A stretch of 64,000 bases of DNA from Synergistaceae bacterium (lineage in GTDB: Bacteria > Synergistota > Synergistia > Synergistales > Aminobacteriaceae), in contig JAFSWZ010000017.1 in NCBI GenBank assembly GCA_017450125.1, positions 1 through 64,000 of the forward strand, written 5' to 3'. The notes beneath the pieces are model-generated. The model was not told the DNA's origin. It ran no database searches and saw only the letters and a program-made list of their open reading frames with translations. Shown one piece after another: positions 1-14,060 of this stretch (position 1 is the stretch's first letter; every line of letters begins with the position of its first letter). A program made the position numbers and the translations under genes.

Positions 1-999
1 AAGGTAGCAACCGGCGACACCAAGCTCCGCGACCTCGACAAGTTCTGGAACTCTGAGGGCGTGTTCATGCTCGATGACCCGAAGACCATCACCCTCAATC
101 AGGGCAATGGCAATAAAGCAAGCGTAACGCTCTACGCCAACGACACGCTTGACGACGTGGCAAAGAAGCTCAACGACGCAGTTGCTGACGGTCTCGGCCA
201 GAAGAACTACGTCGACGACGCTACGAAGTTCGTAACGTTTGTAGGCAACGGCTCGACGACAGACTCTGAGGCAGTTGACGGCACGTTCCTGATCCGTTCA
301 ATCGTTCCCGGCAAGAGCGGCGAAATCACGCTTTCAGGCGACGAGGCGGTTCTTAACGCATTCTCCCTGAACACGATCCAGAAGTCTAAGGAGACCTCCT
401 TCACGGTTGACGTTGAGGATGCACACACCGGCGAGCTCATCAAGCAGGGCGTGAAGATCACCGGCAACGTCGCGAAGGGTCTCATCGACGAGAACGTTGA
501 CGTAGAGTTCAGCGAGCTTTCCGGCATCAGCGCAAAGTGGAACAAGAACACCAACAAGTTCGACTACTCGGCCGCTACGACTGAGACTACGCTCCACCTT
601 GCCGACAACACGACTGTTCTGCAGATCGGTGCAAACGAAGGCGAAGACCTCGCGATGAACATCGGCGACATGAGAAGCCACGCACTTGGACTTGACGGCG
701 TAAACGTCATGAGCCACGACAGGGCGGCACGCTCAATCACCATCATCGACAACGCAATCGACAAGGTAAGCACGCAGAGGGCAAATCTCGGTGCGTACCA
801 GAACAGGTTAGAGTACACGGCCAGCAACCTGACGACCGCAAGCGAGAACCTGAGCAGCGCAGAAAGCCGTATCCGCGACACAGACATGGCGAAGGAAATG
901 ATGAACTTCACGAAGCTCAACATTATGCTTCAGGCTGGCAACTCCATGCTCGCGCAGGCAAACCAGCAGCCTAACAACGTCCTCAGCCTTATCCGCTAG
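1..999 (+). CDS. Flagellin, C-terminal part (5' end outside window)
   Basis: Subunit of the flagellar filament. The frame is open from base 1 with no start, so the N-terminal D0/D1 helices lie upstream of the window; 332 codons remain, ending in TAG. The last 95 or so residues form the flagellin C-terminal D1/D0 helix, with the typical motif SRIRDTDMAKEMMNFTK followed by MLAQANQQPNNVLSLIR. The part before it is a beta-rich outer domain (an SLEDVAKKLN-like segment, then ITLSGDEAVLNAFSLNTIQ) that aligns almost without gaps with residues 608-944 of the complete flagellin at 1647-4481, so the two are tandem paralogs. Codon choice is strongly biased (AAC, AAG, CTC), as expected for a very highly expressed protein. 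Identity is firm; the total length is unknown. Confidence 0.93.
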   Translation, partial: KVATGDTKLRDLDKFWNSEGVFMLDDPKTITLNQGNGNKASVTLYANDTLDDVAKKLNDAVADGLGQKNYVDDATKFVTFVGNGSTTDSEAVDGTFLIRSIVPGKSGEITLSGDEAVLNAFSLNTIQKSKETSFTVDVEDAHTGELIKQGVKITGNVAKGLIDENVDVEFSELSGISAKWNKNTNKFDYSAATTETTLHLADNTTVLQIGANEGEDLAMNIGDMRSHALGLDGVNVMSHDRAARSITIIDNAIDKVSTQRANLGAYQNRLEYTASNLTTASENLSSAESRIRDTDMAKEMMNFTKLNIMLQAGNSMLAQANQQPNNVLSLIR

Positions 1000-1646: not shown

Positions 1647-4481
1647 ATGTCAATGATAATGAATCACGACATGACCGCAATAATGGGACAGCGCATAATG
1701 CAGAGGAACTCCCTCGCTATGAAGCGTTCCCTCGAGAAGCTGTCGACAGGACTGCGGACAAAGATTGCGGATGTTGACAACACGGCCGGGCTTGCCATAA
1801 GCGAGACGATGATGTCCCGCATTGGCGGCAAGGAAAAGGCTCTGCAGAATGCCCAAGACGGTATCAGCATGATTCAGACGGCGGCAGGCGCGCTGGATCA
1901 GACACAGTCAATGCTGCAGAGGATGCGCGAGCTCAGCGTTCAGGCGGCGAATGACACGCTCACCCAGCAGGACAGGAGCTACATTCAGGTTGAGATAAAC
2001 GAGATTCGCGACGAGATAACCAATCTCGGGAACAACACGCAGTTCAACCGCAAGAATATCCTCAGCGGAGACAACGCGGTCCTGTGGAGCAGCACGAACG
2101 AGAACGTCAAGGCGGTAGTTCACGGAGGACTGCGCTCGATAGACAGTTACGGGCAGAAGTACGCGGTTGACGGCAACTACAGGATTACCGTCAAGGCAGA
2201 GGTCGGCAAAGCACAGGTTCAGAAGACAGACATCCTCAAGATTAAGCACGACAGCACAACCGAGCTCAAGACACTGAACACGAAATCGGGGGTAGTCGGT
2301 GTATCGGCCAGCAATGTACCGTCCGGCGACTACAGCATAACTTTCGCGGAGAGCGCAGAGCCCGCGACAGAAGGAGTCCTCACGGGCTCATACGGCATAG
2401 GCGGGATGCTGAACGGTACGGAGAACGCGGTAACCTTTGCTGAAGAAATAGGCGCGCCTGTAACCAAGATAACCGTAGCGACGACTGACGGCGTGGAGAT
2501 CTGGAGCACGTCAGGTTCAGACCTCTTCCGCAACGTCAGGAACGGAAGTGTTACTACTGCGGCGGATCAGTCAGCGTTCTTTGAGGGCAGGACTGACGTA
2601 ACGAACGGACCGGCTTTCGTAGGAGTGAAGGACGAGGTTATTGCTTCTGCGCGCGAAAAAGGCATAATCCTTTCCGGCTTCGAGGAAGCTGACAGTGAGA
2701 GCGGCTCGCTGAACCTTACAGCACAGAGGCTCAACGGCGACGCGACAGGAATCACAATCTCCTACGAGACCGAAGCACCAGGTGTAGCACCCGTTACGGA
2801 GACGACGGCCGCAGACAGTGTAAGGATTGGTGCGGACGAGGTTTTTGCTGTCGAGGTAACTGACCAGAATTTAGACAACGCAAGCGTTCTCTTCGAGGTT
2901 ACGAACATGGACGCTGTCAATGGCATGGTAACCCTGAAAGCCACAGCAAGCAAGCTCTCACAGGACGGACGAGCCACAACGGCCGTGCAGGACAACATCA
3001 TTCTCACGATGGGAGCGGACGGTGAAACTCCTAACACCGTAAGCCTCTTCAAGCTCTTCGGCGGAACGGACGACAGCCCCGCAGCAACAATAACTCTCGG
3101 CGAGAACGGCACAGTTCCCATCCAGAAGGGCGCAAAGTTCGTGTATTCCATCAAGGCCGGAGCAGAGGCAGAGGGCAACGATAACCCCATACAGCTCAAC
3201 ATCACGTCAACTCCTGAAGGCTCAGACCCTGAAAGCTGGAGCGGCGGAGCTTTCGGCGGACAACAGGTGGAGTATCTCCTCAACGGCGAGACCAACGCGA
3301 GCTCTGAGCTGAACTTCCGGCAGTTCTTCGTGAACAGCGAAAACGGAAGCGTCTCGCAGGGAAACATAACCCTCAGGACAAACGCCAACTTCAAGGCCGC
3401 CGACGCAGGAGGAGAGATCAACCCCGAGAACAACAACGCTGCGGCATCGTTCAGGGCGGGTTACGTCGGGGAAGTTGCGACAAGCTCAACGAAGCTCCGC
3501 GACATCGACAAATTCTGGACGAACGAAGGAATATATGTTCTCGAACAGCCCAAAGAATTGACCCTCACGCAGGGCGACGGCAGGCAGGCTAAGATTATGC
3601 TCTACGGCAACGACACGGTAGGAGACCTCACGCGCAAACTGAATGACGCGGTAGCTAACGGTCTGGGGCAGGCAAAGTACGTTGACGATTCTGGTAATTT
3701 CGTGTCATTCGTAGAAGGTGCGACTCCTGGACAGGAAGGCGTAGAAGGTACGCTGGTAATACGTTCCGTGCTACCGGGCACTAAGGGGGAAATCACGCTC
3801 TCGGGCAATGAAGACCTGCTCAAAACCTTATCCCTCAATACGATTCAGGAGTCTAAGGAGACATCGTATGAAGTTACAGTAAGGGATGCACACGACGGCG
3901 AACTTATAGCACAGAAAGTGAACATCACGGGAAATATGCTCGTCGGCGTGATACACAGCAATATTGACGTGGAGTTCGACCCGATGCTGGACGTAAGCGT
4001 TGCGTGGAACGACAAAACCAAGAGCTTCGACTTCACCAACACGGGCGGCGACAACGGAACTGACGTAGTGCTTCACCTTGCGGACAACACGACAATCTTC
4101 CAGGCCGGAGACAGCGAGGGCGACGACGTTATGGTCGCGATAGGGGACATGAGGGCTCATGCTCTCGGCCTCGACGGAGTGAACGTGATGAGCAGGGATA
4201 GAGCAGCTTACTCGACGACGCTGATTGACGCGGCGATAGACAGGGTATCGATGCAGCAGGCCAAGTTAGGGGCGGCACAGAACCGGCTCGAGCACCACAT
4301 CGGCAACCTCACGAAGGAAACCGAGATGCTCACCGAAGCTAACTCGCGCATTCGTGATGTGGACTACATGACGGAGATCATGAACTTCACGACGCAGAAG
4401 ATTCTGATGGACGCGAATACTGCGATGCTGGCTCAGGCAAACCAGATTCAGCAGAGCACGATAATGAGGCTGTTACCGTAA
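1647..4481 (+). CDS. Flagellin with a large central insertion
   Basis: Filament subunit, 944 aa, about twice the size of ordinary flagellins (270-550 aa). Residues 1-140 are the N-terminal D0/D1 helices (LSTGLRTKIADVDNTAGLAI, then the QAANDTLTQQDRSYIQVEIN segment). Residues about 850-944 are the C-terminal D1/D0 helices (SRIRDVDYMTEIMNFTTQKI, MLAQANQIQQSTIMRLLP). Residues 145-845 form a surface-exposed multidomain insert of beta-rich modules. Within it, residues 268-376 match a domain in the secreted protein encoded at 6165-9554. Residues 608-944 are paralogous to the truncated flagellin at 1-999. The start is ATG 1647, preceded by AAGGACGG. The RqcH gene starts on the base after its stop. 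Family assignment is certain; the function of the insert is unknown. Confidence 0.95.
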   Translation: MSMIMNHDMTAIMGQRIMQRNSLAMKRSLEKLSTGLRTKIADVDNTAGLAISETMMSRIGGKEKALQNAQDGISMIQTAAGALDQTQSMLQRMRELSVQAANDTLTQQDRSYIQVEINEIRDEITNLGNNTQFNRKNILSGDNAVLWSSTNENVKAVVHGGLRSIDSYGQKYAVDGNYRITVKAEVGKAQVQKTDILKIKHDSTTELKTLNTKSGVVGVSASNVPSGDYSITFAESAEPATEGVLTGSYGIGGMLNGTENAVTFAEEIGAPVTKITVATTDGVEIWSTSGSDLFRNVRNGSVTTAADQSAFFEGRTDVTNGPAFVGVKDEVIASAREKGIILSGFEEADSESGSLNLTAQRLNGDATGITISYETEAPGVAPVTETTAADSVRIGADEVFAVEVTDQNLDNASVLFEVTNMDAVNGMVTLKATASKLSQDGRATTAVQDNIILTMGADGETPNTVSLFKLFGGTDDSPAATITLGENGTVPIQKGAKFVYSIKAGAEAEGNDNPIQLNITSTPEGSDPESWSGGAFGGQQVEYLLNGETNASSELNFRQFFVNSENGSVSQGNITLRTNANFKAADAGGEINPENNNAAASFRAGYVGEVATSSTKLRDIDKFWTNEGIYVLEQPKELTLTQGDGRQAKIMLYGNDTVGDLTRKLNDAVANGLGQAKYVDDSGNFVSFVEGATPGQEGVEGTLVIRSVLPGTKGEITLSGNEDLLKTLSLNTIQESKETSYEVTVRDAHDGELIAQKVNITGNMLVGVIHSNIDVEFDPMLDVSVAWNDKTKSFDFTNTGGDNGTDVVLHLADNTTIFQAGDSEGDDVMVAIGDMRAHALGLDGVNVMSRDRAAYSTTLIDAAIDRVSMQQAKLGAAQNRLEHHIGNLTKETEMLTEANSRIRDVDYMTEIMNFTTQKILMDANTAMLAQANQIQQSTIMRLLP
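2448..2774 (+). other. Domain shared with the secreted protein (copy in flagellin)
   Basis: Flagellin residues 268-376, containing APVTKITVATTDGVEIWS and DQSAFFEGRTDVTNGP. They correspond to the segment at 9009-9335 on the other strand. In flagellin this lies in the D2/D3-type insert, which is expected to face outward from the filament. Confidence 0.8.
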
Positions 4482-6113
4482 ATGGCATTCGGCCCGGAAT
4501 ATATTTCAGGACTCGCAGGGGCACTACGAAAGATCTTGCCTCTGCGGGTCAATCGTATTGAGGGGGGCGAGTCGTGGACAGCCCTCAAGTTTTCCGGCGA
4601 ACAGTGGCTGTTATTGTCGTGGAGTTCCGGCGCGGCGGGAATTTGCACGGCCTCACAGAGCGAGATGAACGCCCTCAAGGACATTTCCCCGTCAAAAGCA
4701 TCAATCAGCGAGGCACTGAAGAGCAGGCTAACTCACGGGGGAGAGATTTTCTCCGTCAGGCAGCTCAACAACGACAGAGTGATAGAGCTCGGTGCAAGGC
4801 GGAGGGTTTCTGCGGGCGTGAGCGTGAATTATTATCTTGTGTTAGAGATTACCGAGCCCGTAGCGAATTTCCTTCTGCTTGACGAGAACAGGAAGATAGA
4901 CGAGGCGGCCAGGCATTCAACGCCGGACACAAACCGTTTCAGGACGATACTTCCCGGACACCCGTACACTCCGCCGCCTGTCTTCGAGGGAGTTGACCTC
5001 CACAGCGTCAAGAGCCTGAAGCCTGAAGACGTGCAGAACCTTCGGGGGATAGGCCGTCCGTTAGCGAGGCTGGCCGTGAATCACTGGGAGGAGCACGACG
5101 CTTTGTCGTGGCAGTCCGCGCTGGGCAAACTTCTCGACGAGGACTCCGACGTAATGTGCAGGGTCATCACGAAGAACGGATACATGACGCGGCTGGACTT
5201 TTCCCTTCCCGAGACCGCAGAACTTGGCCGGGACGTGCTGAGGGCTTCGGCACACGGAGTATTGCGGCCTCTGCTGATGAGGGGGCGTGAAAAGAAGCTG
5301 CACGAGATTGACGCGAAGATCAAGCGCGCGGTGAAAGCCAAAGAACGCCACCGGGACGGCATCGCCAAGCAGCTCAAGGAATGCCGGGACGCGGAAGTTT
5401 TCCGGCAGAAGGGAGAAGCTATACTATCGCACATTTACGCGATACCCAAACGCGCTGACACCGTAACCCTCACCGACTGGGACGGAACAGTCCTCACGAT
5501 AGCCCTTGACCCGGAACTCTCGCCTTCGCGCAACGCAGAACGTTACTTCAAGCGTTACCGCAAGGCATCCGGCAACCCTGAGGAGATAAGCGCGAACCTT
5601 GAGGCCATAACGTCGGCGATAGACGAGCTGAAGGAACAGCACGCGCTTCTTGAGGCGGTCGATGACCCGGAAAGTTTCTCTGAGGCAGTTAAGGATCTCG
5701 AGGAGTGGCTGAGCCCTGAACCAGCAAGACACCACCGCAAGAAGCAGGCTTCCTCGCTCCCTCCGCACCTGAACATCACGCGGGACGGGGTTACGATTCT
5801 TGTGGGGCTGTCGGCACGCGGCAACAGGTACGTTACGCTGAAGGCGGCACGGCCGGACGATATTTGGCTTCACGCGCACGAGATGCCTGGTGCACACGTG
5901 ATAATCAGGGGCTTGAAGCGTCAGGAGCTTGAAGGCGAACGGCGGGACATCCTCGAGTACGCGGCAGGACTTGCGGCGGGACATTCGGCGGGGAAAGGCG
6001 CGGGCTCTGTGCCGATTGACTACACGGAGAGGAAGTATGTTCGCTCTGTGCCGGGAACTGTCGCTCTCGTAACCTACACCAACCCGGGAACTCTGAGAGT
6101 TAAGCCGGAATAG
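4482..6113 (+). CDS. rqcH: RqcH/NFACT ribosome quality-control protein
   Basis: Bacterial Rqc2/NEMF homologue (once annotated as fibronectin-binding protein). It binds the 50S subunit carrying a stalled peptidyl-tRNA and recruits tRNA-Ala to add alanine tails. Length 543 aa, normal for the family. NFACT-N occupies about residues 1-175 with the conserved DR pair at 98-99 (NNDRVIELGARR). A helix-hairpin-helix segment follows (LRGIGRPLARLAVNHW, about 187-201). The coiled-coil region (about 268-395) includes ALDPELSPSRNAERYFKRYR. The NFACT-R domain (about 428-535) carries PDDIWLHAHEMPGAHVIIRG. The start ATG abuts the flagellin stop (TAAATG), so translation probably depends on termination of flagellin synthesis; I see no separate ribosome site. 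Having this housekeeping gene directly behind a flagellin gene is unusual. Confidence 0.93.
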   Translation: MAFGPEYISGLAGALRKILPLRVNRIEGGESWTALKFSGEQWLLLSWSSGAAGICTASQSEMNALKDISPSKASISEALKSRLTHGGEIFSVRQLNNDRVIELGARRRVSAGVSVNYYLVLEITEPVANFLLLDENRKIDEAARHSTPDTNRFRTILPGHPYTPPPVFEGVDLHSVKSLKPEDVQNLRGIGRPLARLAVNHWEEHDALSWQSALGKLLDEDSDVMCRVITKNGYMTRLDFSLPETAELGRDVLRASAHGVLRPLLMRGREKKLHEIDAKIKRAVKAKERHRDGIAKQLKECRDAEVFRQKGEAILSHIYAIPKRADTVTLTDWDGTVLTIALDPELSPSRNAERYFKRYRKASGNPEEISANLEAITSAIDELKEQHALLEAVDDPESFSEAVKDLEEWLSPEPARHHRKKQASSLPPHLNITRDGVTILVGLSARGNRYVTLKAARPDDIWLHAHEMPGAHVIIRGLKRQELEGERRDILEYAAGLAAGHSAGKGAGSVPIDYTERKYVRSVPGTVALVTYTNPGTLRVKPE

Positions 6114-6117
6114 CCGC

Positions 6118-6162
6118 ACAAAAAAAGCCCTGCCCTTCGCGGACAGGGTGATTTTTTTTCTC
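6118..6162. terminator. Bidirectional terminator between convergent genes
   Basis: CCCTG and CAGGG arms around CCCTTCGCGGA, with an A-run on the left (AAAAAAAG) and a T-run on the right (ATTTTTTTTC). It can therefore end transcription of rqcH (plus) and of the secreted protein gene (minus). Confidence 0.85.
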
Positions 6163-6164
6163 TG

Positions 6165-9100
6165 CTACTTCTCTACGACAATCACAGGCTCGTACGTTAC
6201 TCCTGCTCTCAGCCACGCATCTACAGTTATTGTGCGGCATGAGGGCACTTCCTCGATAGGTGCTCCGTCCGTGTCGTAGAAGTCCGCGATTCTGTCGTCT
6301 TCGGTCTCTTCCGCGTCCTTCGGGAAGGGAAGGTACACCAGCTTTGCCCCGACCGGCGCGTCCTCGAAAAGCTCCGCAGGCAGCTCGTGCTGTCCCTCTG
6401 TCTCTGACGAAAGCTCGGGCAGTACAGCAACCACAACATACCCCTTGCCCTCAATGAACGCGCGGTGTTCCGGCGAAAGCTGAGCGAGTGTGCGCGGAAC
6501 TCCCAACCTAACAGCCTCATCATAATAAACGTCAACAGTTCCGGCTTCATTGTTGCCGTATGTGCGTGCCTCAGGGGATGATTCGGGAGAACTGCCGCCA
6601 TTGTTCGCTGGAGCACTGGCTTCGTCGGATGTGCTCTTGTTCGCGGCAACGTGAATCGTCATCGTACCGCTCTGTTTGTTGGCGGCGTTCGTGGCCTGAA
6701 CGACAAAGTCATCCTCCTCTGCAGTCAGCTTGTTCTTGGCCAGAGTGAACGTTACCGTTGCTTTGCGTCCCTTGCTCGCGGAATCTGCTTTCACTGAAGC
6801 AGTGATGTTGCTGCTCTGCGGCTTCGAGACCTTCCACGTTATCTTTGTGCTGTCGGAGGTGGGGGCTGTCTCGTCGCTTATCCAGAGAGTGAGCGTACTG
6901 CTGACTTTCGCCGTCTTCGAGCCGGTGAGCGTAACATAAGGCACGCTTCCGCCCGTGCTGAGGTTCATTCCCGTGCGGTCGGTATCAATCTCGGGGACAG
7001 GGTCATTTATCGTCAGGGACAACGTGCCCTTACTCTCCGCACCGATGTTCTCGAGACGCAGAGAGACCTTCGCGTTCTTCGAGGCTTTCAGTCCTCCTTC
7101 TCTGACACGCAGAAGCCCGCAGTTGTAGTACTCACTGCCCGGCAAAGCATCATTCTCGATGAGTTCCAGGCCAAGCGCGGCAAGTGCTTCAGTGTCCTCG
7201 TTCTTGCCCTTCTTGTTCAGGGGAGAGAACTTCACCCTGAAGCCCGCTGTGTCGCTGGAAGTAAGCTCCGTCTTGCCGACCTTCGCCCTCACCACCCCAG
7301 CAATATCGCCTGACCTGAAGGCATCCCTGCTCAGCGTCAGCTTCGTCGTGGCCAGAGACGGCTTCGCGCCGGTAACCGTTACCCACAGACGCGCCCAGTC
7401 GCCTGGACCGTAGCCGTTCGTCGCGTTCACCACGATGTCCAACGACTCGAACTCTCCGGCACTGTTCGTCGTCGGAAGAATGGCGTTTGCGGTTGTCAGA
7501 GCCTTGAGCTTGCCGGTCTTGCTGTCGAACGAGAGCCCAACTCCTGCAAGCACCGCCGCATAATAATCGCTTGTCTCTATGCTGTCATCCTCAAGGTATC
7601 CCTCATCATCGCCGAGCCTCCACGTTATCGTCTTCGAGCCCGCAGCTTTTAGGGTTACAGCAGGAACTTTCCCCGCAGCGACACTCTTCGTCTTCTTCGG
7701 GTCAATGTGCTGAAGGCCGGTCTCGTCTGCCGAGCCGGTCTTGTCCTTGATGGTAGCGCCTATCTTGCCCTCTACGCTGACCTTGAGCGTCGTCTTCTTC
7801 TTCGTGAAAGTGTTTGCCGCCGTTACAGTGAATGCCGTCTTGCTCTCCTTCTCCTGCGCCTCGACGCTGCCGGTGAACTCGACGCTTCCGGGCGTTACGA
7901 CTCCTCCGAACGCGTCAAACTCCGGCTGTGTTACTTCAGCTTCTATGCCGTTCTTCTCCGCAGGCTTCACCGTGATGATGTAGTGCCCTTCCCCGCTCAC
8001 AGTGTAGACCGTCGGGACTGTCGCGCTGTCAAGGTCAGAATCCTCAGACAGCGGAACGGTAACAGCTATTTTGCCCGGAGCGTAAATTTCCGCCTCGCTG
8101 CCGTATTCGTCTAGTGAAGTCATCTTCCAGCGTATCAGCTCAGAAGGCTTGGCACTCAGCTTGAAGGTTTTTGTGGCTGGAGACTTCATCGCGGAGTTCT
8201 GGACGGCAACAGTTAGGGGGAAGTTCGTGAAGGCTGTCTTTGCTCCGTTGAAGGTGATGGTTAAGCTGCTCTCGGCATCCTTCGTGTCCCCGCCGCGCTC
8301 AAAGCCCGTTACGCGGAAAGGAAGCCCGTACTGTATGATGTTCTGTTGCGTGAGGTAGATGTTCTCCTCCGGGACTTCTCCATCCTCACCGGGAAACAGT
8401 GTCTTCGCGTCCTTCCTGGCGATGTACACCCACACGTTAGGGGCAGCTCCCTTGACGGTGATTACTGCGGGCTGATCCCTGAAGTTCCCTGCAGTGAAGT
8501 TCGTCGCAGAGATTGCGGCTATCTTCGCCTTGCCCGCCGTTCCCGGCCCGGGATTGTTCGTCTTGTTCTCGTCGTCGTTCTCGCCAGCGTAGAGGTCAAT
8601 GCCGTCCCAGCCGTCCCGCGTTGGGTCTGAGGCCGTGCCTGCAAGATTGGAGACGTTCAGGCTCACGGGCTGAGTTCCAGCGTCCGAGCCGGGCTCTTCG
8701 TGAACGTCAAAGGATGTGCTCATAACGACAACCGCACTGTTCGCAACAACTCTATAGCCATCGTCATTGACGAGCTCTGCGGTAACCGTAACTTTGCCCG
8801 AAATCCCGCTGGGCTTTGCGGTAAGAACTGTCTCATAGACCGCCGTACCTTCCAGCTCCAGAACGTTGTACTCCGACTTCTCGCTGTCAGTGAGAACTAA
8901 TACGCCATCAGCGTCGCCGACAGAGATTTTGAGGCAGTCAGCCCAGCCGTAAGCATCCGAATCCGTGTCCTCCGTGTATGACAGTGAAGGGTTTGCTCCG
9001 CTTGTGTTGGTCTCGTAGAGAATCCTTATCCCCACTGCCGTATCTTCTTCGGCTTTGGCGTTGAGGGTGAACTTCTTGTGCTCGAGGTCTGCATCACCGA

Positions 9101-9554
9101 AGCCGGAGATTATCACGCCCTCTTTGCGCGCCGCCGCTACAACGTCCTTCTTCACTCCGGCAAAAAGCGGACCGTTCGCGGGGTTGGTCCGTCCCTCGAA
9201 GAAGGCCGCCTGATCCTCCGCAGTCGTTGTTCCTCCGTGCTGGGCACTCTTGAACAGGTCAGTACCCTCCATTGACCACAGCTCGCCGCCCTCCGTCGTC
9301 TCAACCGTAATTCTTGTTACAGGAGCACTGATGCCGTTCCTGAACGTGAGCGTTGAGTCCGTGTCGTAAGGGTAGTAGCGTACGAGTGCCTTGATGTTGA
9401 TGCCGATGTCCTCATCCGTCCTGTTCGCGGCGTTGTAGATGTCCGTCAGGCCTGCCGTGATGCTCTCGATCGTGTAGCCTCCTCCTGCCCAAGCCGAAGC
9501 ACAGAGCAGAAGCATCCCCAAAGCAAGCGCGGAAACGTGAATATATCTCTTCAT
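6165..9554 (-). CDS. Large secreted beta-repeat protein sharing a domain with flagellin
   Basis: An exported protein of 1129 aa and unknown function. The frame is open further upstream, but the start is placed at ATG 9554: it follows AAGGAGG by 9 bases and begins a classical signal peptide (MKRYIHVSALALGMLLL, cleavage after CASAWA). The mature N-terminus has DIYNAANRTDEDIGINIKAL, also recognisable in the paralog at 9718-13035. Residues about 74-182 closely match flagellin residues 268-376. The middle consists of repeated beta-sandwich (Ig-like) modules, for example AAGSKTITW and TGAKPSLATTKLTLS. The C-terminal 115 residues (GVPRTLAQLSPEHRAFIEGK onward) form a domain conserved in the paralog. 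There are no Cys-anchor, LPXTG or SLH motifs. A hairpin terminator upstream (9608-9645) indicates its own transcription. A surface-layer or filament-associated role is inference. Confidence 0.85.
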   Translation of the reverse strand: MKRYIHVSALALGMLLLCASAWAGGGYTIESITAGLTDIYNAANRTDEDIGINIKALVRYYPYDTDSTLTFRNGISAPVTRITVETTEGGELWSMEGTDLFKSAQHGGTTTAEDQAAFFEGRTNPANGPLFAGVKKDVVAAARKEGVIISGFGDADLEHKKFTLNAKAEEDTAVGIRILYETNTSGANPSLSYTEDTDSDAYGWADCLKISVGDADGVLVLTDSEKSEYNVLELEGTAVYETVLTAKPSGISGKVTVTAELVNDDGYRVVANSAVVVMSTSFDVHEEPGSDAGTQPVSLNVSNLAGTASDPTRDGWDGIDLYAGENDDENKTNNPGPGTAGKAKIAAISATNFTAGNFRDQPAVITVKGAAPNVWVYIARKDAKTLFPGEDGEVPEENIYLTQQNIIQYGLPFRVTGFERGGDTKDAESSLTITFNGAKTAFTNFPLTVAVQNSAMKSPATKTFKLSAKPSELIRWKMTSLDEYGSEAEIYAPGKIAVTVPLSEDSDLDSATVPTVYTVSGEGHYIITVKPAEKNGIEAEVTQPEFDAFGGVVTPGSVEFTGSVEAQEKESKTAFTVTAANTFTKKKTTLKVSVEGKIGATIKDKTGSADETGLQHIDPKKTKSVAAGKVPAVTLKAAGSKTITWRLGDDEGYLEDDSIETSDYYAAVLAGVGLSFDSKTGKLKALTTANAILPTTNSAGEFESLDIVVNATNGYGPGDWARLWVTVTGAKPSLATTKLTLSRDAFRSGDIAGVVRAKVGKTELTSSDTAGFRVKFSPLNKKGKNEDTEALAALGLELIENDALPGSEYYNCGLLRVREGGLKASKNAKVSLRLENIGAESKGTLSLTINDPVPEIDTDRTGMNLSTGGSVPYVTLTGSKTAKVSSTLTLWISDETAPTSDSTKITWKVSKPQSSNITASVKADSASKGRKATVTFTLAKNKLTAEEDDFVVQATNAANKQSGTMTIHVAANKSTSDEASAPANNGGSSPESSPEARTYGNNEAGTVDVYYDEAVRLGVPRTLAQLSPEHRAFIEGKGYVVVAVLPELSSETEGQHELPAELFEDAPVGAKLVYLPFPKDAEETEDDRIADFYDTDGAPIEEVPSCRTITVDAWLRAGVTYEPVIVVEK
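9009..9335 (-). other. Domain shared with the flagellin insert (copy in secreted protein)
   Basis: This segment encodes a stretch beginning APVTRITVETTEGGELWS and containing EDQAAFFEGRTNPANGP. It aligns without gaps to flagellin residues 268-376 (bases 2448-2774). By eye about half the residues are identical (59 of about 111), including DLF, FFEGRT, NGP, GVK and SGF. I do not recognise the domain from a named family. Confidence 0.8.
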
Positions 9555-9607
9555 GAGCCATGACCTCCTTTGTCTGCTATAGTTATCGGATAAGTGAAAT
9601 TCTACCA

Positions 9608-9645
9608 TGAAAGAAGCCCTGCCCGGATTTCTCCAGACAGGGCCG
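9608..9645 (-). terminator. Terminator of the upstream secreted-protein gene
   Basis: On the minus strand GCCCTGTCTGG and TCCGGGCAGGGC form a long stem around AGAAA, followed by TTCTTTC. It separates the two large secreted-protein genes into distinct transcripts. Confidence 0.8.
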
Positions 9646-9717
9646 GCTGCCAACCTGTGAGTTTACTTCGTCTTCAGCATGAGCAGATGCCTGGACTCTG
9701 TTTCCTCACGTTTTGCC

Positions 9718-12700
9718 TTACTCCGCTTCGATCGCGATCACCGGTGCGTACTTCACTCCGGCGTTAAGCCACGGAGAGGCTATGATCTTATGGCTTGCAG
9801 GAACTCCTTCAACCGGTGTGCCTGCTTCGTCATAGAAATCAACGATGTCTTCATCATGCGTCGCCTTGTCAGGGAATGCGAACCACAGGAGCTTTGCGCC
9901 CTCAGGAGCATTCTCGTCGAGCTCTGCGCTGATGTCGTACTGGCCGTCCTCTTCGACGGTGATCTCAGGAAGTACCGCGACGACCGTGTAACCATTCTTG
10001 GCGAAGAACGCGTTCTGTTCTGCCGTGAGGTTCGCGAGTGTTCTCGGTGCACCGAAGGTTACTCCGGCTTCCTCGCCCTCTGCGCCGTTCTCAGCCTCTG
10101 CCTTTGCCTTAGTGTCAAGGTATGTCTGGTAGCTCGCGCTGCCGTTCTTGGCCTTGACTCTGACGGGCGTGCTGGCCGTGCTTTCGGGGGCGACATAGAC
10201 TGCCTTCGCGTTTGCAGGAAGTGCGCCGGTGTTGTCAGTACTGGCTTTCGCCGCGATGTTGAGCTCCACTGTGCCCTTGCCTGCTGCGCCGATGTTGTCG
10301 AGCGTAACGTTGATCTTGGCCTTCTTGGTCTCCTTCATCTTGCTGGCGTCCGCAACCCTGATGATGCCCAAGTTCTTGTAGTTCTCGTCAGGCTCGGTGG
10401 TTTCATGGCTGCCCTTCCTCAGCCAGACTGCCGTAATTTCAGCAGGCTGGCTATCAAGGCTGACGTTTATAGCACCGCTTGCGACCTTCTCCGTGTAAGC
10501 ACCGCTGTCATAGACATTCTCCGCAAGGACTGTTTCCTTGTCGCCGCTCAGGAGCTTGTACGGAGTCTTGTCGCCGCTCGGGACTATCTCCATATTGTCT
10601 GTAGCCTCAGTATCGGTGCTCTCCAATGCCATGACACTCTTCCAAGTAATCATCTCAAGGCCGAGTCCCTCGAGTGTTTTCTTGCCTGCCGCATCGGGCG
10701 AAACAATGACGTTCGCTCCTGCCGCGCTGGAGGCTACGGGTTTAGCCTTACCTGCATTGAGCGCAAAGGTCTTGATCGTGCCGTTCACGTACTCATTTCC
10801 GGCGAACTCTACCTTCTTGACGTTGAGGGACGGTTTCGCGCCCGTGATGCCCATCATCGTGTGAACTGAGGCATCTTCTTCACCTCCGACCTCATTAGTG
10901 GCGTAGATTATAACCTCTATAGGCTCATACACGCCGTCATTGGACGTAGGAATAGTGTTCTTAGAGCCCTTCGGGTAATCGATTACCGCACCCTTCTTCT
11001 CGTCGAACGACAGGCCTACTTCGTTGAGAGCTTCCAGATCGTCGACATAGTAGGTTATCGTCTTCGAGCCTATGGCCTTCGGCTTCACACTGGGAACTTT
11101 GCCGGCCTCGACGGGCTTCGTCGTGAACCACCTGTGGTTGTCGTCATCCTTCGAGACGGGGTACTTCTTGACGTCGAACGACGCAGGAACTTTGCCGATT
11201 ACCGTGATCTTCGCGGTGCCCTTCTTCTTGGTCATCGGGTTGGTTACCGTGAGGGTTACGGCAGTCTTGCTCTCCTTGTCGGTCTTCGTGAGCTTTCCGC
11301 CGAACGTTACAGAGCCTATGTTGCCCGTATCTTCGCCCTCGTTGTCCTTGCCGATCTCGCCCCTGTAGTTGAAGTCAGGCGAGGTGATGGTTACCTCGAT
11401 GCCGTTCTTGGTCTTGTCCGCGCCCTTCTGGGTGATGACGAACGGGCCGTAATCTCCGCTGATGTAGTAGGTAAGGAGATGCTCGGCTGCCTCAGAGAGC
11501 TTGCCCAAGTTTTCGTCCCCAGCGACAAGCGGGATGGCGATCTCGAGCTTCTTGTCTGCCGGGTTGCTCTTGGTGTCGATCACGTGGTCATAGGGTTCAT
11601 TATACTCAATATGTGTGCCCGAGACTGTGGCTGTTACGTCAGTCGCATCGCCGACATCATCTGAAACCTTCCATACATAATTCTCAGCATCATAGTAGGC
11701 ATTGCCTGTGCTGAGCGTGAAGGCAAGGTCGCCGCCGTTCACGTAGTCGGTGTAACGAGCTTCCTCATCGAAGCTGATTATCGCGCCAGTGAGCGTATCT
11801 CCTGCCTCAAATTCCCTCGCTGTCCTCACACCTTCAGCATTCTCCGTTACGAGCGGGACGTTGGTAAGTGCTGTCTCCACGTTATGGTAGTCATTGAACC
11901 ACCACTGAGGCGAGTCGGTGTTGGGCTCAACATTGATCTTGACGGCCTTAGCGACAGGCTTTGAGGTCTGCTTGTTCTTCAGGGAGACAGTTACCGGGAA
12001 GCCCTTGTAGCTGAAGTACCCGCCGTTGAAAGCGAGGGTCAGCGTGGAGGACATGTTCTTGGCGGTCTCCTTGTCAGCCTTCTTGCCGTCCTTGTCGGTA
12101 GCACCAGTGAGGCCGGTGTTGCCGCTGAAGTCGTAGCTCGTGATCCTGAAGGGGATCTGGTACTCCGCGATGTTGTCCTGGTCGAGGCGGATGTTCTTCG
12201 TTGAGCCCTTAGGAAGCCAGCCGAGCTTGATGGCATCTTTGGCGGCGACGTAAACGTCAACTTCTGTTACTGGGCCGCTGATGGGGATGGTGAGCTCTCC
12301 GGCGGTGCCTGACGTGAAGGTGAGTGCTTCCTTCTCGATCTTGCCGAGCTTGGGCTTGGCCTTGGCGGTTGCGTTGTTGCCGGGGTCGCTCTCGAAGACG
12401 GGGTCTTTGCCGTCCCACTTGGCACCTTCGGGGTTGGCGGGATCGTTCTCGTAGTCGAACTTTGCGTGAATCTCGATCTCTCCACTTGCATTCTCAGACG
12501 CGTCAACTTTTCTAGCAGTCTCCGCAGCGGCATCAGTAGTAATGATTGAGCCGTTAGTCGTTCCGTCAGAGTTGCAAAGGTATACCTTAACAGGGAAGGT
12601 TCCTGTTGTTTTCAGTAATGTACCGGTTACGTCGATTCTGAGCGTGGTAGGTCCCATAGCAGTATTATCATCAGCGGTAATACCCTTCGTGAACCTATAG

Positions 12701-13035
12701 TAGGACTGATTCGCTGCATTCTGATTCTCTACATCGGTATTGGTAACAGTCGTAGACTTGACAGTGAAGACATCACTATCCGAACCTGTTGATGCACCTG
12801 CGACTTCCCACTTGACGACGTTGGCGTTTTTGTAATACCCGCTTGTTGACGGACTTACACCTGACACAGTTACGTAGAAGGACACCGTTACATCTTGGTT
12901 GACCCTCACGGCAGCGTCATAAATATCGTCAACCTCAACAGAGTCTATCTTGAAGTAATAGTCTGCCATCGCAGGCGCAGCGAACGACAGCAACACCCCG
13001 GCCAAGATAGCCAGCATAAACGCGCTTTTCTTCAT
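9718..13035 (-). CDS. Large secreted beta-repeat protein (paralog)
   Basis: An exported protein of 1105 aa, paralogous to the product of 6165-9554. The signal peptide is MKKSAFMLAILAGVLLSF with cleavage after APAMA. The mature start DYYFKIDSVEVDDIYDAAVR parallels the paralog. The middle is made of beta-sandwich repeats; EAGKVPSVKPKAIGSKTITY and TGAKPSLNVKKVEF occur in both proteins at matching places. The C-terminal domain (FGAPRTLANLTAEQNAFFAK ... VDFYDEAGTPVEGVPASHKI) matches that of the paralog. The region corresponding to the flagellin-like domain is replaced or strongly diverged here. The start ATG 13035 has AAGGAGG 8 bases before it. Directly upstream lie a hairpin and a short leader ORF. 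There is no anchor motif. The size, bias towards common codons and 5' UTR hairpin suggest an abundant surface protein; function unknown. Confidence 0.83.
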   Translation of the reverse strand: MKKSAFMLAILAGVLLSFAAPAMADYYFKIDSVEVDDIYDAAVRVNQDVTVSFYVTVSGVSPSTSGYYKNANVVKWEVAGASTGSDSDVFTVKSTTVTNTDVENQNAANQSYYRFTKGITADDNTAMGPTTLRIDVTGTLLKTTGTFPVKVYLCNSDGTTNGSIITTDAAAETARKVDASENASGEIEIHAKFDYENDPANPEGAKWDGKDPVFESDPGNNATAKAKPKLGKIEKEALTFTSGTAGELTIPISGPVTEVDVYVAAKDAIKLGWLPKGSTKNIRLDQDNIAEYQIPFRITSYDFSGNTGLTGATDKDGKKADKETAKNMSSTLTLAFNGGYFSYKGFPVTVSLKNKQTSKPVAKAVKINVEPNTDSPQWWFNDYHNVETALTNVPLVTENAEGVRTAREFEAGDTLTGAIISFDEEARYTDYVNGGDLAFTLSTGNAYYDAENYVWKVSDDVGDATDVTATVSGTHIEYNEPYDHVIDTKSNPADKKLEIAIPLVAGDENLGKLSEAAEHLLTYYISGDYGPFVITQKGADKTKNGIEVTITSPDFNYRGEIGKDNEGEDTGNIGSVTFGGKLTKTDKESKTAVTLTVTNPMTKKKGTAKITVIGKVPASFDVKKYPVSKDDDNHRWFTTKPVEAGKVPSVKPKAIGSKTITYYVDDLEALNEVGLSFDEKKGAVIDYPKGSKNTIPTSNDGVYEPIEVIIYATNEVGGEEDASVHTMMGITGAKPSLNVKKVEFAGNEYVNGTIKTFALNAGKAKPVASSAAGANVIVSPDAAGKKTLEGLGLEMITWKSVMALESTDTEATDNMEIVPSGDKTPYKLLSGDKETVLAENVYDSGAYTEKVASGAINVSLDSQPAEITAVWLRKGSHETTEPDENYKNLGIIRVADASKMKETKKAKINVTLDNIGAAGKGTVELNIAAKASTDNTGALPANAKAVYVAPESTASTPVRVKAKNGSASYQTYLDTKAKAEAENGAEGEEAGVTFGAPRTLANLTAEQNAFFAKNGYTVVAVLPEITVEEDGQYDISAELDENAPEGAKLLWFAFPDKATHDEDIVDFYDEAGTPVEGVPASHKIIASPWLNAGVKYAPVIAIEAE

Positions 13036-13436: not shown

Positions 13437-13712
13437 TTATGCTGGCAGGAGTTCCGGCTTCAAGCCAAGCACGGAGGCCAGCTTGTGGAAAAGGTTTATT
13501 GTGGATTCCTTGTTCACGTACTCGAAGTCCTCAACCTCTTTCTCCTTAACACCCGCCATCTTCGCGAGCTGCCTGCGGGTCAGGCCTCTGGCTTCACGGG
13601 CTTCGGTTATGGCACGTGCTAACCCTGTCTCGAACTCTAAGGCCTCGTATGCACGACGGAACTCGGGATCCTTCATCTGCTCGTTCAAGAAATCCTGAAA
13701 GTCTACTGACAT
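13437..13712 (-). CDS. HigA-like antitoxin, XRE-family HTH
   Basis: A DNA-binding antitoxin of 91 aa that should neutralise the toxin encoded just upstream and repress the pair's promoter. Residues about 33-85 form an XRE/Cro helix-turn-helix: AREARGLTRRQLAKMAGVKE is helix-turn-helix, followed by FHKLASVLGLKPELLP. The N-terminal part (FLNEQMKDPEFRRAYEALE) is the segment often seen in HigA proteins that accompany Gp49-type toxins. It starts 3 bases after the toxin stop, so the order is toxin first, as in HigBA. The terminator lies directly downstream. Family identity is clear; the cellular role of the pair is not known from sequence. Confidence 0.85.
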   Translation of the reverse strand: MSVDFQDFLNEQMKDPEFRRAYEALEFETGLARAITEAREARGLTRRQLAKMAGVKEKEVEDFEYVNKESTINLFHKLASVLGLKPELLPA

Positions 13713-13715
13713 AAA

Positions 13716-14060
13716 CTAATGCTCCCTTCTGAGATAATCTTCACGGTATCTCTTCGCGCGCTCTATTTCCTGTCTAGGAGTCTTCTGCGTCTTTTTGATG
13801 AAGCCGTGCGTCAAGATTGCCCGCCCATTCACCACAAAGAAATACAGCACCCTTGAGATGTTCCCGCCGAATTGTGCTCTCAGCTCAAATATACCATCTT
13901 GCAGCGGCTTTGAGTAGGGTGCACGAAGTTCGTAACCGCGCTCGCCGAGCATTGATATTGTCCGCAAAAGTTTAGCTTTCATCTCCTTAGTAACGCCATC
14001 CAGAAATTCCTGCACCGGGACTGTGCCGTCCTCAGTCTCGTATAATTTGACTTCAATCAT
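13716..14060 (-). CDS. HigB/RelE-like toxin (Gp49-type)
   Basis: A toxin of 114 aa in the RelE/ParE superfamily, HigB/phage Gp49 branch, whose characterised members cleave mRNA on the ribosome. Typical features are the N-terminal strand and helix (VPVQEFLDGVTKEMKAKLLR), LGERGYELRAPYSKPLQDGI, the strand pair FELRAQFGGNISRVLYFFVV and the C-terminal LTHGFIKKTQKTPRQEIERA motif that characterises this branch. ATG 14060 begins the pair; the antitoxin gene follows after 3 bases. Upstream, a metallophosphoesterase gene on the same strand ends 10 bases away, so the pair may be partly read through from it. Confidence 0.88.
   Translation of the reverse strand: MIEVKLYETEDGTVPVQEFLDGVTKEMKAKLLRTISMLGERGYELRAPYSKPLQDGIFELRAQFGGNISRVLYFFVVNGRAILTHGFIKKTQKTPRQEIERAKRYREDYLRREH

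Follow-up and report, generated by a model that had tools for sequence, protein, structure and literature searches.

A folded segment of about 140 residues occurs in a flagellin and again in a Sec-exported protein encoded nearby, and the locus thus raises the question of how one domain came to stand in two proteins that leave the cell by different routes. The window, i.e. the whole stretch of DNA that was analysed, comprises 64,000 nucleotides and is part of contig C17 in a 2.16-Mb draft genome of 43 contigs from a Synergistaceae bacterium. In named collections the congeners appear as uncultured Synergistaceae or Synergistales. Almost all come from the digestive tract of goat, sheep, deer or reindeer, and one of them carries the label Fretibacterium sp. 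The flagellin gene fla2 (1647–4481, plus strand) encodes 944 residues, and its product is identified by Pfam matches to Flagellin_N (2.8e-31) and Flagellin_C (2e-21). It is the second gene of a tandem pair, of which the upstream member fla1 is divided between two contigs: its 3' part lies at 61–999 (plus strand), its 5' part is found at the end of contig C10, and the adjacency of the two is taken from gene order in congeners. Downstream of fla2 follows a gene that we take to be NFACT/RqcH-like (4482–6113, plus strand), and then, on the minus strand, the gene of the secreted protein, here called SEC (6165–9554, 1129 residues). Three genes of this one locus, fla1, fla2 and SEC, bear the shared segment, which we refer to as the module.

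The shared segment is a complete domain

A preliminary description of the window had reported, by eye, that a flagellin stretch beginning at base 2448 and a stretch at 9009–9335 on the opposite strand are about half identical. Both stretches translate as claimed, since codon 268 of the flagellin starts at base 2448 and 9009–9335 (minus strand) lies within the open reading frame 6165–9653, and the similarity is wider than noted. BLASTP aligns flagellin residues 258–408 with SEC residues 65–216 (numbered from the ATG) at 131 bits and E = 6e-35, with 70 of 152 residues identical (46%) and a single gap, and chance is thereby excluded. In the core of 109 residues the identity is 55%, and the alignment did not break down under proper scoring. 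A third copy in the same genome, that of fla1 on contig C10, is 49% identical to the SEC copy.

The boundaries of the module were delimited by aligning flagellins of 18 genomes, where it stands out as a separate insert of about 140 residues in the outer region. Flagellins of the long type (roughly 915–985 residues) have it, and it is cleanly missing from the short tandem paralogues of about 785–805 residues, eight of which were aligned. In fla2 it covers residues 252–392 (2400–2822, plus strand). The shared piece is thus the complete domain, as the SEC copy matches positions 5–139 of the 140-position module profile with E = 7.6e-59, a value obtained with a profile that itself included the SEC copy.

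A profile search across 185 Synergistota genomes found the module in 24 of the 43 that belong to the genus; the 142 others, which represent 61 other genera, gave no match. Thirty-two of the 34 occurrences were confirmed in flagellin reading frames; one of the remaining two (G063) is known as a flagellin-sized frame only, and the other is SEC. No copy was found in phage, plasmid or viral-contig collections, and the module has no match among Pfam and NCBIfam models or, by sequence, among the solved structures of the PDB. The widespread generic domain that the preliminary description had named as an alternative was therefore not what the search returned: the module is limited to the flagellins of this genus and SEC. 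It also differs from the flagellin hook IN motif (PF07196). Two other flagellins of the source genome match that motif weakly in their C-terminal halves, but 12 module sequences gave no match to its HMM at E up to 10, and hhalign gave a probability of 0.6% for the module against the flagellin's own IN-like region. We also considered an origin by internal duplication of flagellin outer segments, and rejected it because hhalign comparison with the other outer segments of the flagellin gave nothing. When the next outer segment of the flagellin and a beta-helix insert were used as queries, the matches were mostly in flagellin-sized frames; the frames that were fetched are flagellins, one of them known from its C-terminal region alone. 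Such beta-helix inserts (PF18889, with GGxITAxGG..GAGIGGG repeats) occupy the outer region of three other flagellins of the source genome (L030, 1118–3997; L031, 1000–3624; L033, 1068–4004), and similar inserts occur in 28 of the 43 genus genomes, the fetched examples again being flagellins.

As the preliminary description had proposed, the structure was predicted. AlphaFold2, run on the module with 22 sequences, returned a confident independent domain (pLDDT 85.6, pTM 0.80) of alpha/beta type, with three strands, helices and then four strands, and the model of the full-length flagellin, which is of moderate confidence (pTM 0.44), repeats this order of elements with the module as a discrete segment. 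Foldseek found no PDB match with E below 0.001. In VIA-align, about 20 of the 50 best rows are outer domains of flagellin, FliD or FlgK, which is suggestive of a predicted fold of the flagellar outer-domain type (D2/D3), but phage sheath proteins come first with Z up to 6.9, and all these values lie in the tool's noise band (Z below 8). The likeness to D2/D3 of FliC (Pseudomonas aeruginosa 4nx9 and 8erm; S. maltophilia 9atl) and of FliD (5xlk, 5h5w) is weak, with Z up to 6.0, and is not accompanied by sequence similarity; phage tail-sheath domains score as well.

The secreted host protein and the insertion site

The probable start of SEC is the ATG at 9554, which is preceded by AGGAGG and followed by a clear signal peptide (MKRYIHVSALALGMLLLCASAWA). 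Repeats of the Ig-like type come next, and a C-terminal domain, about 115 residues long (6168–6512, minus strand), closes the protein. SEC has no Pfam match, and its frame lacks matches to the D0/D1 models Flagellin_N and Flagellin_C, so that it is not a flagellin; with both a signal peptide and the C-terminal domain, it belongs to a secreted family defined by these two features. This C-terminal domain, which has no Pfam or NCBIfam match, occurs at 11 sites in the source genome (another copy in the window being at 9721–10065) and in 42 of the 43 genus genomes, with up to 18 proteins per genome. The carriers otherwise bear He_PIG repeats, leucine-rich repeats or a papain-like protease, and those seen here, a papain-like protease included, have signal peptides. 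The domain probably serves surface retention or sorting, perhaps as a genus-specific anchor. The He_PIG repeat proteins have signal peptide and C-terminal domain in common with SEC, but no other member that we found bears the module.

SEC was compared with seven relatives that come from three genomes, among them the adjoining SEC2 (9718–13035, minus strand), which provides an "empty" counterpart, and all seven are without the module. Once the module (SEC residues 63–203; 8946–9368, minus strand) is cut out, the N-terminal domain of SEC aligns with the seven relatives across the insertion point, where "...INIKALVRY" and "ADCLKISVGD..." on the two sides of the SEC junction are aligned to "...ISLRAYVRA..EATKVKWSVSG..." of the relatives. 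The module is therefore lodged inside a loop of SEC's N-terminal domain, which is beta-rich and probably Ig-like. Members of the family that lack the module are present in nearly all congeners. A secreted protein that bears it was found in the source genome only, one of the 43 congeneric genomes, and a conserved pairing of the two genes, for which the preliminary description had proposed a check in related genomes, was thus not borne out; the lack of such conservation also argues against an essential joint function.

We consider it probable (about 0.78) that a rare, real domain capture took place, in which an outer domain of flagellin was copied into the secreted protein and kept by selection. 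In the ancestry of the source genome, ectopic recombination would have copied the whole domain from the outer surface of the tandem flagellins, in frame, into the nearby gene of a secreted repeat protein, and purifying selection would then have retained it as a folded domain in a loop of the beta-rich N-terminal domain. A compact alpha/beta insertion domain can enter a loop without disturbing its host. The most likely outcome is a double display, in which one binding surface would be presented on the filament after flagellar export and, after Sec export and retention by the C-terminal domain, on an envelope or released protein. That both copies bind one ligand, for example a glycan or mucus component, is a guess to which we give clearly less than even odds. 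The capture rests on a single case, as there is one genome and no second secreted copy for comparison.

Selection on the secreted copy

In a two-ratio codon model with nine sequences and 135 codons, omega was 0.27 on the SEC branch compared with 0.20 in the flagellins. Equality of the two was not rejected (2dlnL 0.5), and omega = 1 on the SEC branch was rejected (2dlnL 12.0). As judged from these codon substitutions, the SEC copy is under purifying selection, with the reservation that part of the SEC branch may predate the capture, which weakens the test. The copy keeps 16 of the 21 aligned columns that are invariant in flagellins, and the five changes are K/R, D/E, E/D, K/E and I/V.

Such constraint could arise in the absence of any binding role, if the insertion was tolerated and its fold is maintained only to keep the insert from disrupting SEC. 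Constraint on folding alone would yield a conserved core pattern, and the SEC branch is indeed fast (0.81 changes per column), no other copy in its clade having diverged as far. However, omega in SEC is near that of the flagellin copies, and FFEGRT, W31 and Y118 are retained, so that conservation goes beyond small buried residues. We therefore regard a mere passenger as a serious but doubtful alternative.

It is also conceivable that the SEC module acts on the flagellum itself, either by binding the filament through self-association of the outer domain or as a decoy that diverts flagellum-binding phages or host antibodies. Outer domains of other flagellins dimerise or form networks along the filament (PMC8931119, PMC10256154), SEC is encoded two genes from the flagellins, and its module is constrained. 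The pair of modules is found in one species only, however, the high divergence of the SEC copy speaks against such a role, and a sigma-28 promoter common to the tandem flagellins and SEC was looked for within 260 bases upstream and none was seen. A partner or decoy role is thus unlikely, and we consider it slightly more improbable still that the module is a transferable cassette for binding or self-association that spreads between neighbouring genes and thereby made SEC a filament partner or a phage or antibody decoy.

Direction of transfer and mobility of the module

In the module tree, the SEC copy sits in a clade of 13 members together with 12 flagellin modules (support 98/99). This tree is unrooted and does not by itself fix the position of the root, and a flagellin backbone tree was therefore built without the module and rooted on other flagellins. 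It contains two paralogues, fla1, in which every member has the module, and fla2, which is mixed. Eight fla1 members of the SEC-module clade nest among other fla1 proteins in the backbone tree, and the root of the module tree therefore lies outside the SEC clade. The branching order of the sequences supports passage of the module from flagellin to the secreted protein, not the reverse.

The opposite course, in which the module was born in secreted proteins and inserted into flagellins, leaving SEC as a relic of the donor, would fit the well-documented uptake of domains by the hypervariable regions of flagellins, such as the enzymes of flagellinolysins (PMC5595980), and the unrooted module tree alone would permit it. 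Yet flagellin modules occur in 24 genomes and the secreted one in a single genome, SEC-family members without it are found in nearly all congeners, and fla1 bears the module in all genomes examined, with the backbone tree rooting outside the SEC clade, so that we hold this course to be very improbable. A chimeric contig that fused a flagellin piece to another gene, as might be feared in a draft of 43 contigs broken at tandem flagellins (C10/C17), can be dismissed almost entirely. A fused piece should hardly differ from some real flagellin, whereas no available flagellin module is more than about 55% identical to that of SEC; the SEC copy also keeps the reading frame on both sides, and its GC3 agrees with that of the host gene (0.67 versus 0.68).

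Capture from a flagellin, the reading that we prefer, would have followed earlier moves of the same kind between the tandem paralogues. The fla2 modules depart from the fla2 backbone, as their grouping together was rejected, if only modestly (p-AU 0.02), and this conflict indicates repeated transfer of the module between the tandem genes. The module closest to the SEC copy is not that of the adjacent gene but that of fla1 in another species (G023). Recombination within the locus would nevertheless be the natural route. With third codon positions close to saturation (about 40% identical), neither breakpoints nor age can be read, and the case for a nearby flagellin as the donor is circumstantial. 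Of the proposals in the preliminary description, the shared domain, the contrast of flagellar and Sec export, and a transfer, now with a direction, hold; the filament-surface interaction, antigenic mimicry or shared binding partner that it suggested would be conceivable consequences.

Relation to known systems

Flagellin hypervariable regions are known to contain 61 domain families, including the metallopeptidases of certain flagellins (PMC5595980), and outer domains of flagellins in other bacteria contribute to adhesion, immune escape and filament stability (PMC10256154). Like our module, insertions of the flagellinolysin type are folded domains in the surface-exposed centre of flagellin (PMC5595980). 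They brought a foreign domain into flagellin, whereas in SEC a flagellin-specific domain has gone out to a Sec-exported protein, and the capture is thus the mirror image of the known domain gain by flagellin. In the literature searched, no case of domain export from flagellin to a Sec-exported protein is described. The SEC case indicates that an outer domain can persist outside the filament, and the SEC module offers a natural single-domain construct with which ligands of the outer domain can be addressed free of polymerisation. Shuffling of the module among tandem flagellins is one way in which filament surfaces vary in gut Synergistaceae. The weight of these points is limited by the single case and the uncultured organism.

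Further features of the locus

Tandem flagellin repeats fragment these assemblies. The 3' part of fla1 is 99% identical in a congener (L100), where it also stands at a contig start, the break falling in the same gene as in the window (61–999). A perfect sigma-28 box (TAAA-N15-GCCGATAA) was seen only at a flagellin gene on contig C7 (L027, upstream of 3377, minus strand); fla1 and fla2 are without a perfect box. The SEC locus is variable and contains zero, one or two SEC-type genes across the species compared, and beside it, at 13437–14060, lies a small gene pair of the HTH/RelE-like toxin–antitoxin type, named by eye. The presumed NFACT/RqcH-like gene is a conserved neighbour of fla2 and starts 0–12 bases past the fla2 stop, both in the window (4478–4490) and in at least eight congeners (L098, L100, L103–L106, L118 and L126), so that a ribosome quality-control factor and a flagellin apparently form a conserved, coupled pair.
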